Below are positions 31,469 through 41,479 of a stretch of 64,000 nucleotides of DNA, piece after piece. The stretch comes from Arthrobacter sp. NicSoilC5 (GTDB taxonomy: Bacteria > Actinomycetota > Actinomycetes > Actinomycetales > Micrococcaceae). Within the stretch, counting starts at the first letter, position 1; every line of letters begins with the position of its first letter. The DNA lies in contig NZ_AP024660.1 in the NCBI RefSeq assembly GCF_019977395.1, positions 2,170,001 through 2,234,000 on the forward strand, read 5' to 3'. The notes beneath the pieces were generated by a model that was not told where the DNA came from, ran no database searches, and saw nothing but the letters and a program-made list of their open reading frames with translations. A program made the translations under genes and the position numbers.

Positions 31469-33844
31469 GTGAACCCCCACGACTCCCTGATTCCTTTGCT
31501 GGGCCGCGGCCCGGAACCGGAACAGCTGCGTCATGTCCGCACCATACCGGCGCGGGAGGCAGTCCACGCGCCCTGGCCTGAATGGGTTCATCCGGACATT
31601 GCTGCGGCGTACGGGACGCTGGGCATCCTTGAGCCGTACCGGCACCAGGTTGACGCGGCCGATGCAGCGCATTCGGGCCAGCACGTTGTGGTGGCTACCG
31701 GCACTGCGTCCGGAAAGTCCCTGGCGTACCAGCTGCCGGCGTTGGATGCGATCCACCGGTCCGAACTCCGCGTGCTCGCGGACCCGGGCAAGATTCACGA
31801 CGACGGCGCCGTCACCCTTTACCTCTCCCCCACCAAGGCGCTGGCGGCGGACCAGCTGAACGCCATCCGCGCCCTGAAGCTGCCCACGGTCCGGGCGGAA
31901 ACTTACGACGGCGATACCGATCCCTCCGCCCGCCGGTGGATCAGGGACCACGCCAACTTCATCCTGGCCAACCCCGACATGCTGCACTTTGGCATCCTTC
32001 CCAACCACGCGTGGTGGGCCGGTTTCTTCCGCCGCCTTCGCTACGTCATCGTGGACGAGGCGCACAGCTACCGGGGCGTGTTTGGCTCACACGTGGCCAA
32101 CCTGATGCGGCGGCTGCGCCGGATCTGCGCCTATTACGGTGCGGGAACGGCGTTCCCCGAGCCCGTGTTCATCGCTGCCTCCGCCACCGCGTCCGAGCCC
32201 GATGTCTCCTTTTCCCGCCTCATCGGGGCCCCCGTCAAGGCGGTGTCCCGCGACTGCTCGCCGCACGGGGCCACCACCGTGGCGCTGTGGGAACCGGCGC
32301 TGACCGAGGTCAGAGGGGAGAACGGCGCGAAGGAGCGGCGGACGGCCGTGGCCGAAACCTCCGATCTGCTGGCCAATCTGGTATCCGCCCGGGTCCGCAC
32401 CATCGCCTTCATCAAGTCCCGCCGCGGCGCCGAGACCATCTCCGCGATTACCAAGCGGCTCCTCGACGAGGTGGATCCCAGCCTCCCGCAGCGGGTTGCC
32501 GCCTACCGGTCGGGGTACCTGCCGGAGGAACGCCGGGCGGTGGAGAAAGCGCTGCGTTCAGGCCAGCTGCTGGGTGTTTCCAGCACGTCTGCGTTGGAAC
32601 TCGGGATCGACATCTCGGGCCTGGATGCCGTCCTGGTGGCCGGCTGGCCCGGTACGCGGGCATCGCTGTTCCAGCAGATCGGCAGGGCCGGCCGGGCGGG
32701 CCAGGATGCCATTGCGGCCTTCGTGGCCAGCGATGACCCGCTGGACACTTTCCTGGTGAACCATCCCGAGGCCATCTTCGACGTGTCGGTGGAGGCGACG
32801 GTCTTCGACCCTTCCAACCCCTATGTTCTGGGCCCGCACCTGTGTGCGGCAGCCGCCGAGCTTCCCTTGGGGCCGGGCGAGCTGGACCTCTTCGGGCCCA
32901 CCGCTGAAATGCTCCTGGACCGGCTGGTTGCCCAGGGCTACCTCCGGCGGCGGCCCGCGGGCTGGTTCTGGACCCACTCGCAAAGCGCGGCGGGGATGGT
33001 CAACCTGCGGGCAGACGGTGGGGGCCCGGTCAGCATCGTCGACGCCGAGACGGGTTCCCTCCTGGGGACCATGGACTCGCCGCAGACGCACTACCAGGCA
33101 CACACCGGGGCCGTGTATGTCCACCAGGGCGACTCCTATGTGGTGGAGGACCTGAATGAAGACGACCACTGCGTGATGGTCCGCCGGGCCAACCCCGACT
33201 ACTACACGACGGCACGCGACGTAACCCAGATCGAGGTCCTGGACACCCTGCGGACCATGCAGTGGGGCGACGTGACCGTCCACTTCGGCGACGTGAAGGT
33301 CACCACCCAGGTTGTCTCTTTCCAGCGCAAGGCCCTGATCTCCAATGAGGTCCTGGGCGAGGAGCCGCTGGAACTCGGTGCACGGGAGCTCTTCACCAAG
33401 GCGGTGTGGTTCGTGGTGGACAACCGTTCGCTGACCGGGGCCGGCCTCATCGAAGCGCAGTTCCCGGGCGCCCTGCATGCCGCGGAGCACGCCGCGATCG
33501 GACTTCTGCCGCTGGTGGCCTCCAGCGACCGGTGGGACATCGGCGGGGTCTCCACTGCCCTGCATGCCGATACCGGGGTGCCCACCATTTTCGTGTACGA
33601 CGGGCACCCCGGCGGAGCCGGCTTTGCCGAACGGGGATTCGACAAAGCCATGGTCTGGCTGGCAGCGACCCGCGATGCCATCAAGGCCTGCGAGTGCGAT
33701 GCCGGCTGCCCGTCCTGCGTGCAGTCCCCAAAATGCGGCAACAAGAACAACCCGCTGGATAAGGCCGCCGCGGTTACCCTCCTGGACGTGCTGCTCAAGG
33801 ACGCCACAGAAGCCACGCCGGTGGATCTGGAAGCCAGGAGCTGA
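31469..33844 (+). CDS. DEAD/DEAH helicase with DUF1998 cysteine cluster (MrfA/YprA-like)
   Basis: This 791-residue superfamily 2 helicase has the Q-region YRHQ, Walker A ATGTASGKS, DEAH (VIVDEAHSY), motif III SATA, and motif VI QQIGRAGRAGQ. The C-terminal DUF1998 region ends with the cysteine set CECDAGCPSCVQSPKCG, which binds zinc in MrfA. In Bacillus, MrfA works with MrfB in mitomycin lesion repair; a repair role is possible here. Its position beside a tad operon matches the helicase/secretion neighbourhood of other actinobacteria. Start is GTG. Confidence 0.88.
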   Translation: MNPHDSLIPLLGRGPEPEQLRHVRTIPAREAVHAPWPEWVHPDIAAAYGTLGILEPYRHQVDAADAAHSGQHVVVATGTASGKSLAYQLPALDAIHRSELRVLADPGKIHDDGAVTLYLSPTKALAADQLNAIRALKLPTVRAETYDGDTDPSARRWIRDHANFILANPDMLHFGILPNHAWWAGFFRRLRYVIVDEAHSYRGVFGSHVANLMRRLRRICAYYGAGTAFPEPVFIAASATASEPDVSFSRLIGAPVKAVSRDCSPHGATTVALWEPALTEVRGENGAKERRTAVAETSDLLANLVSARVRTIAFIKSRRGAETISAITKRLLDEVDPSLPQRVAAYRSGYLPEERRAVEKALRSGQLLGVSSTSALELGIDISGLDAVLVAGWPGTRASLFQQIGRAGRAGQDAIAAFVASDDPLDTFLVNHPEAIFDVSVEATVFDPSNPYVLGPHLCAAAAELPLGPGELDLFGPTAEMLLDRLVAQGYLRRRPAGWFWTHSQSAAGMVNLRADGGGPVSIVDAETGSLLGTMDSPQTHYQAHTGAVYVHQGDSYVVEDLNEDDHCVMVRRANPDYYTTARDVTQIEVLDTLRTMQWGDVTVHFGDVKVTTQVVSFQRKALISNEVLGEEPLELGARELFTKAVWFVVDNRSLTGAGLIEAQFPGALHAAEHAAIGLLPLVASSDRWDIGGVSTALHADTGVPTIFVYDGHPGGAGFAERGFDKAMVWLAATRDAIKACECDAGCPSCVQSPKCGNKNNPLDKAAAVTLLDVLLKDATEATPVDLEARS

Positions 33845-33898
33845 TTCCCCGCCCGGAGACGTGCCCTTCGATGACCCATCTCCCCCGATTCCCTGGCC

Positions 33899-34399
33899 CT
33901 ACGGCGGAGGTCCTGCCCGGGCCCGTCCCGTCGCGGCACCCAGCAGTGCGCGCTCCCCGAGCTCAGTGCACACCTCAATCGTCTGTCCCGGGCCCGCTGA
34001 GCAGCTGAGGACCGTGGCGGAGTGCCGCGCCGCCACCTCAACGGCCACCGCGCAGGGATCCCCCGTGGTGATGCCGCGGAGGGCATCCGCCGCGGCGAGA
34101 GCTGCCAGGTCCGCTGCTGCTGCCGCCCTGCTCGCGAGCACGGCTGACTGGGCCAGCAGCAGCATGACGGCCATGGCCGTCATGACCACCAGCGCCAGCC
34201 CCGCGGCCAGGACCGTTCCCGACCCACGTTCGCGGCCATCTGTGGCGCCTTGTGGACTCTGACCGGGACCAAAATTCCGCCGCCCTCCCCGGGCGTACCG
34301 GCGTCTTGTGGCGTGCCGGCGCCCGGGTGCAGCACGACCGGACCCAGCACAGGGATGGCCGGTCCCAATCGTGGGGTGTCGCCGCCCGTGGTCACCCAT
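33899..34399 (-). CDS. TadE-like pseudopilin (Rv3654c-like)
   Basis: This 166-residue protein is the last gene of the tad operon. A Gly/Arg-rich leader of about 58 residues precedes ERGSGTVLAAGLALVV, a hydrophobic helix like that of pilins, but the +5 glutamate of true pilins is absent. Rv3654c of M. tuberculosis has the same place and shape. The start shares one base with the TadE stop (TGATG), and the preceding ORF frame further upstream is inside tadE. It is probably a minor subunit or assembly factor. Confidence 0.65.
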   Translation of the reverse strand: MGDHGRRHPTIGTGHPCAGSGRAAPGRRHATRRRYARGGRRNFGPGQSPQGATDGRERGSGTVLAAGLALVVMTAMAVMLLLAQSAVLASRAAAAADLAALAAADALRGITTGDPCAVAVEVAARHSATVLSCSAGPGQTIEVCTELGERALLGAATGRARAGPPP

Positions 34400-34893
34400 C
34401 ACCTGACGCCCCCGGCATCGCCCGATCCGTCGCCGCTGCCGGCGGCGCCGGTCCCCGCAGTCTCGCTGCGTGTTGAGGCACGGGCGGTAAGGGTCCATGG
34501 GATGGAAGTTCCCAGGGGTCCGGGCACCCGGTCAGTGACCGTGACCCTGAACCAGCCACCGTCGGCGGCAACTGTCGCGGACGCCGAACTGCCGGCGAGC
34601 ATCCTGACGGTCCGTTCCACGGCTGCGGGGTCATCGCCCCTGGCCACGGCCCTGGCGCCGGCCCGGGCTCCCTCTTCAATACGCAGCTGAGTCATGCCCG
34701 CGGCGGCTCCGGCGAGCAACATGGCCAGGAGTGCCAGCACGGCCGGCAATGCCACGGCGAACTCTGCCGTTACGGTGCCGCGGGCGTCGCCCGTCTTGCC
34801 TGCCTGTTCCTGGTGACCGTAGCTGGAGCCCACACCGCCGGTCACCGCTTCAAGAGTCTTCCGGGACGTCAACAGTCCTGCCGGACGCGTCAC
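34399..34893 (-). CDS. tadE: TadE family pseudopilin
   Basis: This 164-residue protein has a type IVb-like cleavage site: Gly39 then TVTAEF, which puts Glu at +5 and Phe at +6, followed by a hydrophobic helix (AVALPAVLALLAMLLAG). TadE is a minor pilin-like component of Flp/Tad pili. The C-terminal part is Gly/Ser-rich and short. It begins with GTG and overlaps the DUF4244 pilin stop by 4 bp. A prepilin peptidase is needed to process it, and none is in the window. Confidence 0.75.
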   Translation of the reverse strand: MTRPAGLLTSRKTLEAVTGGVGSSYGHQEQAGKTGDARGTVTAEFAVALPAVLALLAMLLAGAAAGMTQLRIEEGARAGARAVARGDDPAAVERTVRMLAGSSASATVAADGGWFRVTVTDRVPGPLGTSIPWTLTARASTRSETAGTGAAGSGDGSGDAGGVR

Positions 34894-35402
34894 GGCAGCG
34901 CCAGGGCGGTGCGGATGAGGTTCAGCAGGAAACCACGCACTTCATCGCTGCGGAGGATGAACACGAGCAGCCCGGCAAAACCCACCGCGGCCAGGGTGGC
35001 AATGGCGTATTCGGCTGTTGCCATGCCGGCTTCCGAGCCCAGCAACCCTACGCTGCGCCGCATCCTGGGGGTGCGGCCCGCAGCCGGGTACAGCTCCACC
35101 ACGTTGCCGGGCGGCGGGAAGGACGCCGCTGGAAAGGACGTACCTGAGGCCGGTGCCTGCGGAACGAGTGCGCGACTGACAGTTGTGTTGGAAGCAAGGG
35201 CACGGGATGTGGCACGGGATGTGTATTGCGTCCCGACCGCGTTGCCACGGCTGCGGGCCGGCCCCATGGCCATCGGCCTGGGAGCGGTGGCCATCGGCCT
35301 GGGAGCGGTGGCCATCTGCCTGGGAGCGGTGGCCATCTGCCTGGAAGCAGCGGGTGCGGACATTCCGGCGGAGTAATTGCGGCGGTAGTGGTTGGTGGAC
35401 AT
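34890..35402 (-). CDS. DUF4244 Flp-type pilin with a long repeat-bearing leader
   Basis: The C-terminal 57 residues (LGSEAG then MATAEYAIATLAAV...) match the DUF4244/Flp pilin core, with cleavage after Gly126 and Glu at +5, Tyr at +6. The leader before that site is 126 residues, against 10-25 in usual Flp pilins. It contains four seven-residue repeats of the type RQMATAP, then a Pro/Ser/Thr-rich stretch. The first ATG has a good AAAGGA ribosome site, while an internal ATG at 35063 (giving a 13-residue leader) has none at a good distance. Both must be kept in mind. Confidence 0.8.
   Translation of the reverse strand: MSTNHYRRNYSAGMSAPAASRQMATAPRQMATAPRPMATAPRPMAMGPARSRGNAVGTQYTSRATSRALASNTTVSRALVPQAPASGTSFPAASFPPPGNVVELYPAAGRTPRMRRSVGLLGSEAGMATAEYAIATLAAVGFAGLLVFILRSDEVRGFLLNLIRTALALP
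35268..35351. repeat. Four tandem 21-bp repeats inside the pilin gene
   Basis: Four direct 21-base units of the form GGCCATCGGCCTGGGAGCGG plus T differ at only a few bases. They encode the seven-residue repeats in the pilin leader, in frame on the minus strand. Confidence 0.9.
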
Positions 35403-35722
35403 CTGGTTTCCTTTCCATGGGTGCCGGTGGTTTTCCCGGCTGTCTTGACTCTTCCCGGCGGGGTTGTTGCGGGTAAGGGAGGGTGTGGGCTAAGTGGAAA
35501 AGCGGGGCTGCTCCAGCGCTGTGGAGGAGGGGACGGACAGCGCGACCGGGGGCGGCGGGACAGGCTGGGAACCAGGAACCAGGGGCACCGGGACAGACCG
35601 GGAACCGGGAACCGGAAGCGGCGGAATAGGCCGGGAAGCGGGAACCGGGGCCCGGGGCCCGGGAGCGGCGGAGCCAGCGAGGAGCCGGATTGCGACGAGC
35701 CGGATTCCGAGGAGACAGCCGC
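35403..35722. other. GGGAACC-rich low-complexity gap between tadC and the pilin gene
   Basis: This 320-base gap has no supported gene. Between about 35567 and 35665 the plus strand holds many copies of GGGAACC or GGAACC, then CCCGGGGCCC-like palindromic runs. On the minus strand this is the untranslated part between the tadC stop and the pilin ribosome site, so it may hold a separate pilin promoter or an RNA structure. Confidence 0.55.
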
Positions 35723-36340
35723 TTAGGAACCGGACGGTACCAGGGCCAGCAGCACCGGAACGACACCAAGGCAGATGAAGGCCGGGAGTGAGCACAGGCC
35801 CAGGGGAACGACCAGCTTCACCCCGAGCGAAGCGGCCCGCTTCTCCGCAGCCCGAAACCGCTCCCGGCGGAGCCTTGCAGCCTGGGCGTAAAGAATCGCT
35901 GACGACGGCGCGCCCGTGAGTGCGGCGAAGCCCAGCGCGTCCCGCAACTCCAGGACTTCGGGCAGCTGTATTGCGGAGCTGCGCCATGCCGTCTCCCAGT
36001 CGGCGCCAATGGCCAGCGCCGAGACCACGGGCCGCAGGGATTCCCGGTACTGCGGGGCAGCCGAAGCAGCCACCAGGTCAAGCGCCCGGCCAATGCCGGC
36101 GCCGGCATCGAGCATGGCCGCCACCAGCTCCAGCATCATGGCCGGATCCTTCAGCCCGCTGCCGGAACTCGCTGGCGCCCCTTTGGTGGCTGCCGTCGGT
36201 TGTGCCCCTGCAGCGGCAGGAAGCAGGAGGCGCAGCCGTTGGCGCGGCCTGGCGTGGCTGGAACAGGCAAGCCAGGCGCTGGCCGCGAGCAGCAGGAACA
36301 ATGCCAGGCCTGGAGCCCACCCCTGGGTCATGGCACTCAT
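35723..36340 (-). CDS. tadC: TadC-like inner membrane platform protein
   Basis: This 205-residue type II secretion F-domain protein carries hydrophobic segments at each end and the F-domain helices (MLELVAAMLDAGAGIGRALDLVA, then LRRERFRAAEKRAASLGVKLVVPLGLC). It should form the membrane platform of the Tad pilus with TadB. The ATG at 36340 overlaps the TadB stop by 4 bp and is preceded by AGGGGC. Confidence 0.78.
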   Translation of the reverse strand: MSAMTQGWAPGLALFLLLAASAWLACSSHARPRQRLRLLLPAAAGAQPTAATKGAPASSGSGLKDPAMMLELVAAMLDAGAGIGRALDLVAASAAPQYRESLRPVVSALAIGADWETAWRSSAIQLPEVLELRDALGFAALTGAPSSAILYAQAARLRRERFRAAEKRAASLGVKLVVPLGLCSLPAFICLGVVPVLLALVPSGS

Positions 36341-37128
36341 GCCCCTGCCGCCGCCGAAACCAGCCGGGCAGACCATGCCCTTCCCGTCACGGTGAGGACC
36401 ACCCCGCCGAACAAGGCGGCCAGTCCCAGGGGTGTTCCCAAGAGGGTAGCGAGGGGATCCACGCCGAGGGCGGCACCAAGTCCAAGACCCATCAAGGGGA
36501 GCCAGGTCAGGAGCCGAACGGTGGCTTTGGGCCCTGCGAGCGCCGTCTGCCGGGCCGCATCTGCGTCATCCTCCGCTTCCAGTTGGGCCGCGAACCGGGT
36601 CAGTACGTCGGCGAGCGGACACCCGCTGGCCTCCGCAATGTCAAAGCAGGCGGCCAGCTCCAGCCAGGTCCTGGCCTCCCTGTCCCGGGGCTGGAACGCT
36701 GTGGAAACCGCGCGCCGGATGGATTCCGAAACGGGAGCTCCGGTCGCGGCGGCAGCACGCGCGGATGACAGAACCGCAGCTGATCCCTCTGACAGCATCG
36801 CCCCGGAAACGGGTGCACGCTCTTGAAGCCGCTGCCCGTTTCCGCCATCGCCGTAAACCGTCCACAGCTCGTCCCACAACCGCCCCGGCGTCCGTCCGCC
36901 CTGGAGCAGTGCCGCCAGTTGCTGCACCACCAGGGTCAGGCCCGGTCCCCGCCTCCGTGCCGCGCTCCTGCCGGCAGCGTTGCCCCACGGCCGTACCAGG
37001 ACTCTCTTTATCCCCTGCGTGTTCTTCCTCTTGCCGGTTGCCGTGCGCAGCCGGGAAGCCGCGTCCAGGGGCGGTTTGAGGAGCAGCAGCATGGCACTGC
37101 AAAGAAGCACGATGAACAGGACCGTCAC
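36337..37128 (-). CDS. tadB: TadB-like inner membrane platform protein
   Basis: This 263-residue F-domain protein has an N-terminal membrane helix (TVLFIVLLCSAMLLLL), a cytoplasmic F domain (VVQQLAALLQGGRTPGRLWDEL ... FDIAEASGCPLADVLTRF) and two C-terminal helices. It pairs with TadC. GTG at 37128 overlaps the TadA stop (GTGA). Confidence 0.78.
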   Translation of the reverse strand: MTVLFIVLLCSAMLLLLKPPLDAASRLRTATGKRKNTQGIKRVLVRPWGNAAGRSAARRRGPGLTLVVQQLAALLQGGRTPGRLWDELWTVYGDGGNGQRLQERAPVSGAMLSEGSAAVLSSARAAAATGAPVSESIRRAVSTAFQPRDREARTWLELAACFDIAEASGCPLADVLTRFAAQLEAEDDADAARQTALAGPKATVRLLTWLPLMGLGLGAALGVDPLATLLGTPLGLAALFGGVVLTVTGRAWSARLVSAAAGA

Positions 37129-38423
37129 AGGGTTGCCCCGGGATCCATCCCCAACCGGGCCGCCAGCGCCGGCCACGCCGGACCCGTGATACCTGACTCC
37201 TTAATGGCCGGCACCACGGCCAGTCCTGCCGGGCCATCGGCGATGAGTCCAACGCACAGGACTTCCCGGCCCTTCGGGGTCCTTCCGACATGGATGACAA
37301 CGTCGAGGGCGCTGGCGGCCTGAAGCCGCACGGCCTCCGGGCCGAGCCCGGCGAGCGCGCCGAGGGCGTTGAGCCTGGCCGGGACCGCGGCTGCCGTGTT
37401 CGCGTGGATGGTTCCGCCACCGCCACTGTGCCCGGTATTCATCGCCGTCAGGAGCTCACGGACTTCAGCACCCCGGCACTCCCCCACCACCAGCCTGTCC
37501 GGACGCATGCGAAGCGCCTGGCGAACCAGCTCCCCCAAGTCCACGGCGCCGCCACCTTCAAGATTCCCGTGGCGTGATTCGAGGGCCACCACATGGGGGT
37601 GGACAGGGTTGAGTTCGGCCGCATCCTCGATCAGGACCAGCCGCTCTTTCGCGGAACAAAGGCCCAGCAGGGTGGACAGCAGCGTGGTCTTACCGGAACC
37701 CGTGGCACCGCTGACCAGGAAACTCAGCTTCCTCTCCACTATCCTCTCCAGCACCGTCTGCACGCGCTGGCCGAACATGCCGCCCGCGCGCAGCTCCGCC
37801 ATGCTGAAAACCCTCTCCCTGCGAATCCGGACGCTCAGCAGCGTCCCGGACGTGGACACCGGCGGCAACACGGCGTGAACACGGTAGCCGCCGGCAAGCC
37901 TGACATCGACGCAGGGCGACCCGTCATCCAGGCGGCGCCCGCCTGCAGCCACCAGCCGGCAGGCCAGCGCGCGCAGTTGGGCCTCGCCATCGAACACGAC
38001 AGGTACGCGCTCGATGCCCCTGCCACGGTCCACCCACACGGAATCGGGAGCGTTAACGAAAATGTCTGTGACGGCAGGATCCCTGGTGAGCTCCTGCAGC
38101 GGTCCCAGTCCGTTGAGTTCGGCACTGATCCGTTCCACCGCGGCAAGCGCTCCGGCGGTGCCCAACAGCTTGCCCGTGGCCTGGACAGCAGCAGCGACGC
38201 GCGACGGTGTTACCGCTCCAGCCTCGGCCATCATCGACTCACGGACGGATTCCAGCAGCCCGGAATCAACGGCCCGGCCAGTACCGGCTGCCTCACCGGC
38301 CCGCGCCTGGCGGACGGCCTGGTTCGCTTCAAGGATCCGGGCACTGCGCCGTGCACCCAGGCCCCCGGACCCTGCAGCGCTGCCCGTATCGGGAGCTGAA
38401 GGTGTACCCGACGGCCGCCTCAT
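37125..38423 (-). CDS. tadA: TadA/CpaF secretion ATPase
   Basis: This 432-residue type II/IV secretion ATPase drives pilus assembly. An N-terminal domain precedes Walker A (SGATGSGKTTLLSTLL), the Asp box (LIEDAAEL), Walker B (LVVGECRGAEV) and the His box (GTIHANTAAA). Its sequence matches the actinobacterial helicase/secretion-neighbourhood ATPase family. The start overlaps the upstream stop by 4 bp. Confidence 0.88.
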   Translation of the reverse strand: MRRPSGTPSAPDTGSAAGSGGLGARRSARILEANQAVRQARAGEAAGTGRAVDSGLLESVRESMMAEAGAVTPSRVAAAVQATGKLLGTAGALAAVERISAELNGLGPLQELTRDPAVTDIFVNAPDSVWVDRGRGIERVPVVFDGEAQLRALACRLVAAGGRRLDDGSPCVDVRLAGGYRVHAVLPPVSTSGTLLSVRIRRERVFSMAELRAGGMFGQRVQTVLERIVERKLSFLVSGATGSGKTTLLSTLLGLCSAKERLVLIEDAAELNPVHPHVVALESRHGNLEGGGAVDLGELVRQALRMRPDRLVVGECRGAEVRELLTAMNTGHSGGGGTIHANTAAAVPARLNALGALAGLGPEAVRLQAASALDVVIHVGRTPKGREVLCVGLIADGPAGLAVVPAIKESGITGPAWPALAARLGMDPGATL

Positions 38424-39646
38424 GCCACATCCCCCGCCTGCAGGTCCTCGCCGAGCCAATCGAGCACCGTGGCGCCGAAATGGCGGATGCTCCGCCGCTT
38501 CCCAAAGTCCAGCAGGCGCCCCGCTTCCATGGCTACCGGGACGGCCCGCAGTTCGGGGATGCGGCCCTGCACGGGCAACCCTACGGCGTCAGCAATCAGG
38601 GAACTGTCCAGCGCAGCGCCTGGCCGGCCCCGCACTAGCAAGGCAGCCTCCACGGGCGGAAGTTCCTGCAGGAGGCGCACCGTTGCGACCGCGGCCTTCA
38701 GCTGCGCCGGCACCACCACCATGATCCGGTCACAGTCCCCGGCCACCGTATGGAGCGGCTCCGCGGCCCTTCCCACATCCACAACGACCAGCTCAAAACC
38801 ACGGCGGGCAGCATCGAGCACACCCGCTGCGGCGGCAGCAGGGACACGGACCGGCTGCTCCCGGGTGGCAGGCCAGGACAGGAAGGAAAAACCTCCGGCC
38901 ACGGGCAGGGAGTCGGAGAGCTGCAGGGGATCAATGCTGCCCCTTGCCTCCGCGAGGTCCGGCCAGCGCAGTCCGGGGTTGTCCTCGGCAGCGAGCGCCA
39001 GTTCCAGGCCACCGCCCCAGGGGTCCCCGTCAAACAGCAGGACGCGTACCCCCAGCCCTGCCGCGGCCTGGGCTATCCAAATGGCGGCGGTGGTTGCCCC
39101 CGCCCCGCCGCAACCGCCCGTGATGCCAAGGACCAGGCCGCCGGGTCCCGGCGAGCGTGACCGGCTCAGATGGTCCGCCAGCCAGGCAGCGGCATCGGGC
39201 AGCACGGCAACGCGTTCGGCGCCCAGGGCGGCGGCGAGGTGCCAGAGGCTGTCCCCTTCGCCGTCGAGGCCCACCATGACGGCAGGGGTGCGCCGCCGTG
39301 GTGGCAGCTCCCGCACATCGCTGCCCACCAGGACGGCCGATGCAGCGTCCCAGTACCGTCCGCCCTCCACTGCATCCGGAACGACGCGCAGCTGGGCTCC
39401 GGCGGCTGCCACAATGCGCTCCACTTCGGCGCGGAGAACCCCCGAGGAGGTAACCAGCAGCACCCCGCCCGCACCGCCCGGTGCTGAACCGCCCGGCGGT
39501 GAACCGTCCGGCAGCCAGGCGGCGCCGGACGCCGGGTTGTCCGGCAACGCAGCACGGGAGGGTGATCTCCGGCCTGGTGGCCGCCGGAAGGAATCCGTGG
39601 CCTGCCCCGGCGCGGGGTGCGGTGCATTCAGCTGGTGCCTGCTCAT
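38420..39646 (-). CDS. CpaE/Ssd-like MinD-family protein of the tad operon
   Basis: This 408-residue protein has a Pro/Gly-rich N-terminal region, a receiver-like domain (LLVTSSGVLRAEVERIVAAAG), then a ParA/MinD ATPase domain with a deviant Walker A (GGCGGAGATTAA) and LLFDGDPWGGG. The homologue in M. tuberculosis (Rv3660c, Ssd) affects septum formation, and CpaE localises the pilus machine in Caulobacter. It is the first gene of the operon. The ATG at 39646 was chosen; the ribosome site is weak. Confidence 0.78.
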   Translation of the reverse strand: MSRHQLNAPHPAPGQATDSFRRPPGRRSPSRAALPDNPASGAAWLPDGSPPGGSAPGGAGGVLLVTSSGVLRAEVERIVAAAGAQLRVVPDAVEGGRYWDAASAVLVGSDVRELPPRRRTPAVMVGLDGEGDSLWHLAAALGAERVAVLPDAAAWLADHLSRSRSPGPGGLVLGITGGCGGAGATTAAIWIAQAAAGLGVRVLLFDGDPWGGGLELALAAEDNPGLRWPDLAEARGSIDPLQLSDSLPVAGGFSFLSWPATREQPVRVPAAAAAGVLDAARRGFELVVVDVGRAAEPLHTVAGDCDRIMVVVPAQLKAAVATVRLLQELPPVEAALLVRGRPGAALDSSLIADAVGLPVQGRIPELRAVPVAMEAGRLLDFGKRRSIRHFGATVLDWLGEDLQAGDVA

Positions 39647-39742
39647 GCAGCCACTCTGCCGCGGCAACCAAAGCCCGTTAAGGGGGCACCTCCCCTATGT
39701 GGACAAACAGGGCCACCACTCCCGGCAGGGCACAATGGGAAC

Positions 39743-41479
39743 ATGTACCTGCTGCTTGCCGCCCACCCCCGCGGTGCGGCACTGCAGGAACTGACACAGG
39801 CAGGCGACCCTCAACCGGCCAACCCCGGGCCCCGGCTGGTGGCACCCGGCGAGCTTGCCGCCGTCGTCCGTGAACTGGAAGCCCGGCGCCCCGGAGGACA
39901 GCCGCCCCGGTGGATCTGGCACCGGACGCAGGACTGGTACCCCGCGCTGCTCGCCTCCGGTGTGGAGGTGGAGCGCTGCTACGACGTCACCCTCTGCGGC
40001 AACATCCTGGCCTTCTCGCAGTTCAGCGCCCATACCGATTACGCCAGGAATACCGACAGGGTCCCGGTGGAGGATCCCATGCTCCCGCCGAAGGCTCTGC
40101 TGCCGCCGCGTCCCCCGGCGGACCAGGGAGCGCTGTTCGACGATCCGGGTGCCGGACCGGCCCCGGGGTGGGGACTTGAGGACCTCCGCGCCGAATACGC
40201 GGCCCAGCAGGCCGCCCTGGCCGGCGTGGGGATGGAGGAAAACCGCCGGCACCGCCTCCAGCTGCTGCTCGCGGCGGAGTCGGCAGCCGCCATGGTTGCT
40301 GCCGAGATGCAGCACGCGGGCGTTCCGTGGCGGGAGGACCTGCACGAACAGATCCTGGTTGACCACCTGGGGCCCCGCCCGCCCGCCGGACAGCGTCCGC
40401 AAAGACTCGAGGCGCTTGCTGCGGAACTGCGTACCCTGCTCAACTCCCCGGGGCTCAACCCCGACTCGCCGCAGGACCTGATGCGGGCCCTGCACCGCAA
40501 CGGCATCGAGGTGAAGAGCACCCGGAAGTGGGAGCTCAGGGAGTCCAGCCACCCTGTCATCGAGCCGCTGCTGGAATACAAGAAGCTCTCCCGCCTCCAC
40601 ACGGCCAACGGCTGGTCATGGCTGGACGCCTGGGTGGACGGTGGCAGGTTCCGCCCCGAGTATGTGGTGGGTGGAGTCGTTTCCGGGCGCTGGGCGTCCC
40701 GGGGCGGTGGCGCACTGCAGATCCCGCGCCAGGTCCGCGGAGCGGTCCATGCAGACCCGGGCCACAAACTGATCGTGGCCGACGCCTCGCAGCTGGAACC
40801 GCGCGTCCTGGTGGCCCTCGCGCAGGACTCCTCCATGGCTGAGGCCGCCCGGGACCAGGACCTGTATGCCGGCATCGCCGCCAAGGGCTTCGGCGGGGAC
40901 CGGGCCAAAGCGAAGATGGCGTTGCTGGGCGCGATGTACGGCGCCACCTCCGGCGAGGCCGGGCGGCTGATGCCGCAGTTGGCGCGCACCTATCCGCGCG
41001 CCGTCGACTTTGTGGAGCGTGCGGCGCGGGCGGGTGAAGCCGGCGGAACGGTGACCACGCGGCTGGGCCGCAGCAGCCCGCCGCCCTCGGAGCGGTGGTT
41101 CCTGAGCCAGCGCTCCACCACCGCCGAAGAGCAGCGGCGCGCAGAGTCCATAGCCCGGTCCCGGGGGCGTTTCACCCGGAACTTCGTGGTCCAGGGCTCC
41201 GCGGCGGACTGGGCGGCGTGCTGGCTCGCGGAATTACGACGGCGGCTGCGCACCCTTCGGACAGCGGGCACCGGCGGCAGCGGCGGGACGGTCCGGGCCG
41301 AGTTGGTCTTCTTCCTGCACGATGAGGTGATGGTGCATGCGCCCGCGGAAAGGGTTGACGCCTGCATCGCCGCCATCGAGGAATCGGCCGTGGCGGCAAA
41401 GGAGCTATTGTTCGGGCGGATCCCGGTGGAGTTCCCGGTGAGCCTCGCCGTCGTCGACTCCTACAACCTCGCCAAATAG
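39743..41479 (+). CDS. DNA polymerase I-like protein (Klenow-type, degenerate exonuclease domain)
   Basis: This 578-residue protein has the three family A polymerase motifs: motif A VADASQLEPRVLV, motif B RAKAKMALLGAMYG (RxxxKx7YG) and motif C LHDEVMVHA. There is no 5' nuclease domain. The N-terminal 190 residues sit where a 3'-5' exonuclease would be, but I cannot see the DxE or YxxxD metal-binding residues, so proofreading may be lost. It is divergent from the tad operon. A repair or translesion role is possible. The ATG follows TGGGA. Confidence 0.82.
   Translation: MYLLLAAHPRGAALQELTQAGDPQPANPGPRLVAPGELAAVVRELEARRPGGQPPRWIWHRTQDWYPALLASGVEVERCYDVTLCGNILAFSQFSAHTDYARNTDRVPVEDPMLPPKALLPPRPPADQGALFDDPGAGPAPGWGLEDLRAEYAAQQAALAGVGMEENRRHRLQLLLAAESAAAMVAAEMQHAGVPWREDLHEQILVDHLGPRPPAGQRPQRLEALAAELRTLLNSPGLNPDSPQDLMRALHRNGIEVKSTRKWELRESSHPVIEPLLEYKKLSRLHTANGWSWLDAWVDGGRFRPEYVVGGVVSGRWASRGGGALQIPRQVRGAVHADPGHKLIVADASQLEPRVLVALAQDSSMAEAARDQDLYAGIAAKGFGGDRAKAKMALLGAMYGATSGEAGRLMPQLARTYPRAVDFVERAARAGEAGGTVTTRLGRSSPPPSERWFLSQRSTTAEEQRRAESIARSRGRFTRNFVVQGSAADWAACWLAELRRRLRTLRTAGTGGSGGTVRAELVFFLHDEVMVHAPAERVDACIAAIEESAVAAKELLFGRIPVEFPVSLAVVDSYNLAK

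Follow-up and report, generated by a model that had tools for sequence, protein, structure and literature searches.

The locus considered here lies within a window of 64,000 nucleotides from the genome of Arthrobacter sp. NicSoilC5, and it raises the question of why a pilin with a predicted mature form of 44 residues should be made behind a leader of 126, and whether the tandem repeats within that leader have any part to play. Judged from its sequence, the gene, flp, is the prepilin gene of an actinobacterial Tad (T4c) pilus. In a Pfam scan, residues 120-167 of its product match DUF4244 (PF14029) with 70.7 bits against a curated cut-off of 27, and the Flp_Fap family (PF04964) gave no match at E values up to 1. 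Both the G/xxxxEY cleavage site and the hydrophobic helix of Flp/Tad (T4c) pilins are present, and upon translation Gly126 is followed by mature M-A-T-A-E-Y, so that Glu occupies +5 and Tyr +6, i.e. the cleavage motif is intact, as had been noted from the DNA alone. We call the product a variant Flp/Tad pilin because its precursor, at 170 residues with a leader of 126, is not the short one (50-80 aa) with a short leader; the mature part, at 44 residues, is normal.

The cluster around flp (Table 1) contains Ssd, TadA, TadC and TadE by profile as well as TadB by position and a sub-threshold match, and its order, Ssd-tadA-tadB-tadC-flp-tadE, in what is an Arthrobacter/Pseudarthrobacter-type genome, is also that reported for Rv3660c-Rv3654c in Mycobacterium tuberculosis. 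The closest named proteins to the flp product come from Arthrobacter sp. 8AJ (96 %) and Pseudarthrobacter sp. LMD1-1-1.1 (87 %). Matches to flp occur in 204 of 206 genomes of the genus, and matches to DUF4244 in 145 of 149 genomes of the family and in 144 of 296 drawn from the phylum. Two genus genomes, G194 (98 % complete) and G184 (63 % complete), are without an flp match; given the completeness of G194, the gene may be lost or split there. Further tad loci of the same genome lie at 1.646-1.660 Mb (L076) and 1.376-1.386 Mb (L077), the first of them holding four Flp_Fap pilins. These are the genome's four matches to that profile, all away from flp, and they too are Tad pilins with a G/xxxxEY site, differing in their Pfam family; three have leaders of 24 residues, and the longest option for the fourth is 42, with internal methionines.

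Table 1. Features of the flp locus (positions within the window)
Feature	Position	Strand	Basis or remark
Rv3654c-family TadE-like protein (TIGR03816)	33899..34498	-	Profile match
tadE minor pilin (NF041390)	34399..34893	-	Profile match; GTG start overlapping flp stop
flp, DUF4244 Flp/Tad prepilin, 170 aa	34890..35402	-	PF14029 profile and translation
Mature pilin, 44 residues, 4.66 kDa, predicted helices 127-151 and 153-167	34893..35024	-	Translation, AlphaFold2
Leader (propeptide), residues 1-126, predicted disordered, last residue Gly126	35025..35402	-	Translation, AlphaFold2, genus comparison
Conserved leader motif NVVELYP, residues 100-106	35085..35105	-	Motif regex in 81/97 distinct genus leaders
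Four 21-bp / seven-residue tandem repeats, RQMATAP-like	35259..35342	-	Tandem Repeats Finder, translation
Ribosome site GAAAGGA	35409..35415	-	6 nt upstream of ATG 35402; exact in 74/97 distinct genus sequences
Conserved upstream element: CCTCCACA, CTTTTCCACTT, CTTACC, GGAAGAGTC, then CAGCCGG	35436..35527	-	Genus comparison
tadC (T2SSF)	35723..36376	-	Profile match
tadB	36337..37176	-	Named by position; T2SSF match below cut-off, E 0.0086
tadA ATPase (TIGR03819)	37125..38459	-	Profile match
ssd / tadZ-like (TIGR03815)	38420..39667	-	Profile match

The length of the leader follows from the choice of start codon. The original prediction had credited the upstream ATG with a good ribosome site and the internal one, at 35063, with none, and both statements hold. 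Initiation at 35063 would yield a leader of textbook length, 13 residues, with the remainder untranslated, and a start codon giving a leader of 5-30 residues is indeed present in 78 of 97 distinct genus sequences; however, any listed ribosome site accompanies such a codon in just one of the 97, and the methionine of the internal ATG is replaced by threonine in L002, the closest species locus. The 97 sequences derive from a survey of 146 genus loci, 144 with an intact core (the other two, L067 and L068, are both insertion-split) and 115 with an ATG or GTG behind an AAGG-type ribosome site. Among 47 pairs with a DNA identity of 0.75-0.985, substitutions per site at the three codon positions are flat upstream of the ATG (0.076, 0.063, 0.077), periodic across the leader (0.120, 0.093, 0.217) and strongly periodic across the core (0.020, 0.003, 0.171). 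The ribosome-site survey and this codon-periodic substitution, beginning as it does at the upstream ATG, show at the level of sequence that translation of flp begins at 35402, and initiation at 35063, for which the missing ribosome site, the threonine of L002 and the periodicity of the leader leave hardly any room, was rejected. One genome, to which both L020 and L161 apparently belong, speaks for a short leader in that its only in-frame start is a GTG giving 23 residues; its ATGs are out of frame, as would result from a frameshift or a sequencing error.

By this assignment, a long leader is the norm of the genus. Leader lengths among the 97 distinct sequences run from 49 to 140 residues with a median of 71, a range that depends on the start having been chosen by its ribosome site; 80 of them exceed 51, none is shorter than 49, and the leader of 126 residues ranks fourth, with three longer. 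The 29 intact loci without an AAGG-type start were excluded from the counts of length, motif and substitution; in 25 of them an ATG is available that would yield 40 residues of leader or more, and in four (L020, L064, L138 and L161) there is none. Beyond the genus, where starts are less certain, leaders measure approximately 16 to 138 residues in the 30 best-scoring loci from other genera of the family, approximately 11 to 90 in order-level loci, and approximately 15 to 42 in loci of mycobacterial type. The claim that the leader is several times longer than usual therefore stands against the type IV pilin leaders of two reviews, given in their excerpted text as 6-26 aa (PMC4471445) and 6-51 aa (PMC6916266), but not against its own genus, where it sits in the upper tail of 49-140. 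No leader of more than 51 residues was found among the matches listed in the literature on type IV pilins. Because 80 of the 97 assigned leaders exceed that length, search tools that presuppose a short leader could overlook pilins of this kind.

The Flp of M. tuberculosis, Rv3656c, has 68 aa, and its peptide TGDSIVSALNR is close to the core of the mycobacterial-type DUF4244 loci; from the position of that peptide, 48-58, and the core, its leader would be about 23 residues, vs 126 here (PMC9531140, excerpt). Micrococcus luteus, also of the Micrococcaceae, has a Tad pilin, Mlut_18170, of 77 aa and a processed mass of 4.4 kDa, similar to the 4.66 kDa here; its leader, as derived from these two figures, would be approximately 33-35 residues, vs 126. 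In that species, according to the excerpted text, two tad clusters are needed, the peptidase is separately encoded, and surface Flp complexes went undetected upon deletion of the peptidase gene (PMC4322843). The type IVa pilins PilE1 and PilE2 of Streptococcus sanguinis, which are cut by a dedicated peptidase, have leaders termed very long for T4a pilins in an excerpt of PMC10191384, yet these are of 18 residues (PMC5389465, excerpt), vs 126 here.

The repeats within the leader were confirmed as four units, RQMATAP, RQMATAP, RPMATAP and RPMAMGP, and Tandem Repeats Finder reports the array with a period of 21, 3.9 copies, 96 % matches and a score of 143, the highest among the 97 leaders, ahead of one of 88. 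They also vary in number, as anticipated: by regex, counted by eye, there are four copies in this flp and P0001, three in P0002-P0005, and two in P0006 and L002. Such variation among close relatives, along with the strength of the array, is what might be expected if copy number tuned the retention or release of the pilin. However, the repeats are degenerate in P0007 and P0008 and gone in P0009, beyond the closest relatives, and 18 of 97 leaders contain a tandem array of some kind, vs 22 of 96 tadE segments of equal length, though only five of 97 tadC segments do. Since arrays are no commoner in leaders than in tadE segments, the array is read as slippage in a tolerant stretch, and the repeats as a special feature of the leader were rejected. 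A role for them in tuning the retention or release of the pilin is thus very improbable; they look like neutral slack that fades beyond the closest relatives.

The leader and the pilin that it precedes also differ sharply in how they evolve. Pooled over 143 non-independent pairs that share sequences (those with a leader identity of 0.55 or higher, cores of equal length and eight or more differences), pN/pS is 0.43 for the leader vs 0.022 for the core. There are 27 distinct cores among the 97 genus sequences, that of this flp being the commonest, with 31. AlphaFold2 gives block-mean pLDDT values of 41-52 over residues 1-130 and places no secondary structure before residue 127, where the two helices of the mature pilin begin; over the whole product, the mean pLDDT is 54.7 and the pTM is 0.20. 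The leader is accordingly predicted to be mostly disordered. By the rules for class III signals, under which the leader stays cytoplasmic and the peptidase cuts after the glycine (PMC10191384, excerpt), it would be a cytoplasmic segment that is cut off, and to that extent the idea of a cytoplasmic or cleaved leader holds up; a leader domain with its own fold was dropped in view of the low pLDDT and the lack of secondary structure. A search of solved structures with the mature pilin, at E values up to 10, returned a single match, at E=1, which was taken as chance.

One short part of the leader stands out from its scrambled surroundings. The regex [VI]x[EQ][ILF][YFHRCS][PL] matches 81 of 97 genus leaders, vs a mean of 0.15, and at most two, in shuffled leaders. 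The motif keeps its distance from the cleavage site (median of 22 residues from its end to the glycine, with an SD of 8.0) more closely than its distance from the start codon (SD of 18.0), and it recurs in other genera, where 12 of the 30 best-scoring family loci, searched over the whole open frame before the glycine, carry forms such as NVREIFPGA, NVSEIYPGA, NVVELFPGA and similar. By way of this motif, which lies outside the repeats, a role for the leader is possible. Among the 16 genus leaders that miss the regex, seven are near misses by eye (four of these keep ELYPG) and nine have nothing similar; six of the nine (L049, L050, L056, L058, L059 and L062) carry an acidic FELE/FDLE stretch. 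The motif NVxELYPG is likewise absent from the printed leaders of the mycobacterial-type DUF4244 loci. The motif is missing from family relatives whose leaders have 16-17 residues, and is thus dispensable for a pilin of this family.

The nine motif-free leaders can be turned into an argument that the leader does nothing beyond supplying a membrane-proximal basic stretch and the glycine, its length being unselected and grown by drift, and the motif representing processing context only. The same argument can call upon the leader's pN/pS of 0.43 and its lengths of 49-140, the 18 of 30 other-genus loci without the motif, the relatives that have merely 16-17 residues, and the three Flp_Fap pilins of the same genome that manage with 24. 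Against it are the persistence of the motif in 81 of 97 leaders amid scrambled surroundings where shuffling predicts 0.15, its recurrence in other genera, and the lack of any assigned leader shorter than 49 residues among the 97. Pure drift is thus regarded as a possible but doubtful explanation.

The reading that is modestly favoured is that the leader is a cleaved cytoplasmic propeptide, drifting in sequence and length, with a short docking tag. According to this proposal, the leader would remain cytoplasmic, and an A24 prepilin peptidase with its gene elsewhere in the genome would cut after Gly126. Each of 25 genus genomes, this one among them, has two matches to such peptidases; here both exceed the cut-off and lie at 1.6465 Mb, beside the Flp_Fap pilin genes, and at 4.3205 Mb, far from every match to a T2SSE-type ATPase. 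Because the leader would never enter the filament, its sequence and length could drift, with the repeats as one product of that drift, while the mature pilin would be frozen, probably by filament packing. The selected part would be the NVxE[IL][YF]PG-like motif approximately 22 residues before the cut, a putative docking tag that may pass the precursor on, before cleavage, to a partner in the cytoplasm or membrane, whether the peptidase, TadA or Ssd, the choice among which is a guess. A stricter version, in which the leader is a disordered cytoplasmic arm and the partner must bind the motif before the peptidase can free the pilin, is put forward tentatively and is on the unlikely side; if true, it would constitute a checkpoint on pilin supply in the Tad pili of the Micrococcaceae, and no such checkpoint was found described among the matches listed in the literature on type IV pilins. 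Since a near-frozen pilin of 44 residues is joined to a leader that is scrambled except for one conserved motif, simple mutants could test whether the leader has a function.

Two other features of the locus, a conserved element upstream of flp and the insertion of recombinase elements into the gene, may matter more than the leader. TTWTCCACTT occurs upstream of flp in 94 of 97 genus loci vs none of 97 in the tadC control stretch, and in 83 of the 85 loci that have both, GGRASAGTC follows exactly 46 nt later, the intervening sequence being variable. CAGCCGG, the last box of the element, is the first arm of a CCGG/CCGG inverted repeat that extends just past it. The pattern TTWTCCACTT-N(8-26)-CTTAC was found in 20 of 25 genus genomes and in none of 14 others; 20 of its 21 sites are, by coordinate, at the flp locus, and the remaining one, in G010, is about 20 kb off. 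The reversed control pattern occurred once in each of five of the 39 genomes. The element looks like a dedicated promoter or operator of flp, with boxes that may resemble DnaA boxes. It is read as DNA rather than RNA because an alignment fold of the region upstream of flp gave no meaningful structure, at -0.18 kcal/mol. Known RNA families had no match at the gathering threshold within 33500-40000. Here the gap between tadC and flp spans 320 nt, and 91 of the 93 loci measured fall within 136-342 nt; at 35545-35650, the gap here holds GC-rich repeats with a period of 33 and 3.2 copies.

Genome comparison indicates that different elements with large serine recombinases have repeatedly inserted into flp. 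In G007, G027, G121 and G237, an element of approximately 9.1-10.2 kb, bearing a large serine recombinase at one of its ends, splits the gene within the first codons past the cleavage site; G168 has, near a contig end, the right half of flp and roughly 90 residues from a recombinase that shares 88 % identity with that of G237; and G211 probably has a right junction, accompanied by a serine recombinase fragment. The resulting count for the genus, five clear insertions and one probable among 204 genomes, is a lower bound, as inspection was limited to matches that looked suspicious (weak or double). Outside the genus but within the family, four of 137 genomes with a match have an insertion, each with a recombinase: both halves of flp were found in G568 and G671, and the right half in G664 and G665, with G599, whose match ends at a contig end, left out. 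The loci concerned are L107, L108, L121, L122, L123 and L124 within the genus and L286, L287, L289 and L290 outside it. At least three groups of recombinases can be distinguished: G007/G121/G664/G665 (47-82 %), G027/G237/G671 (40-84 %) together with the G168 fragment, and G568, which is at ~31 % from the first. The elements are phage-like: of the four scanned in the genus, that of G007 encodes a tail tape measure protein, that of G121 a D5-type primase, that of G027 both a capsid and a primase-polymerase, and that of G237 a capsid. Direct repeats of at least 16 nt bounding the elements were absent from the two elements tested. Recombinase elements in a Tad pilin gene were not found among the matches listed in the literature; phages in comK of Listeria offer a parallel. 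Lying in the frozen core, these insertions amount to natural knock-outs of flp, and P0006, one of the relatives with two repeat copies, ends in a junction of the same type.
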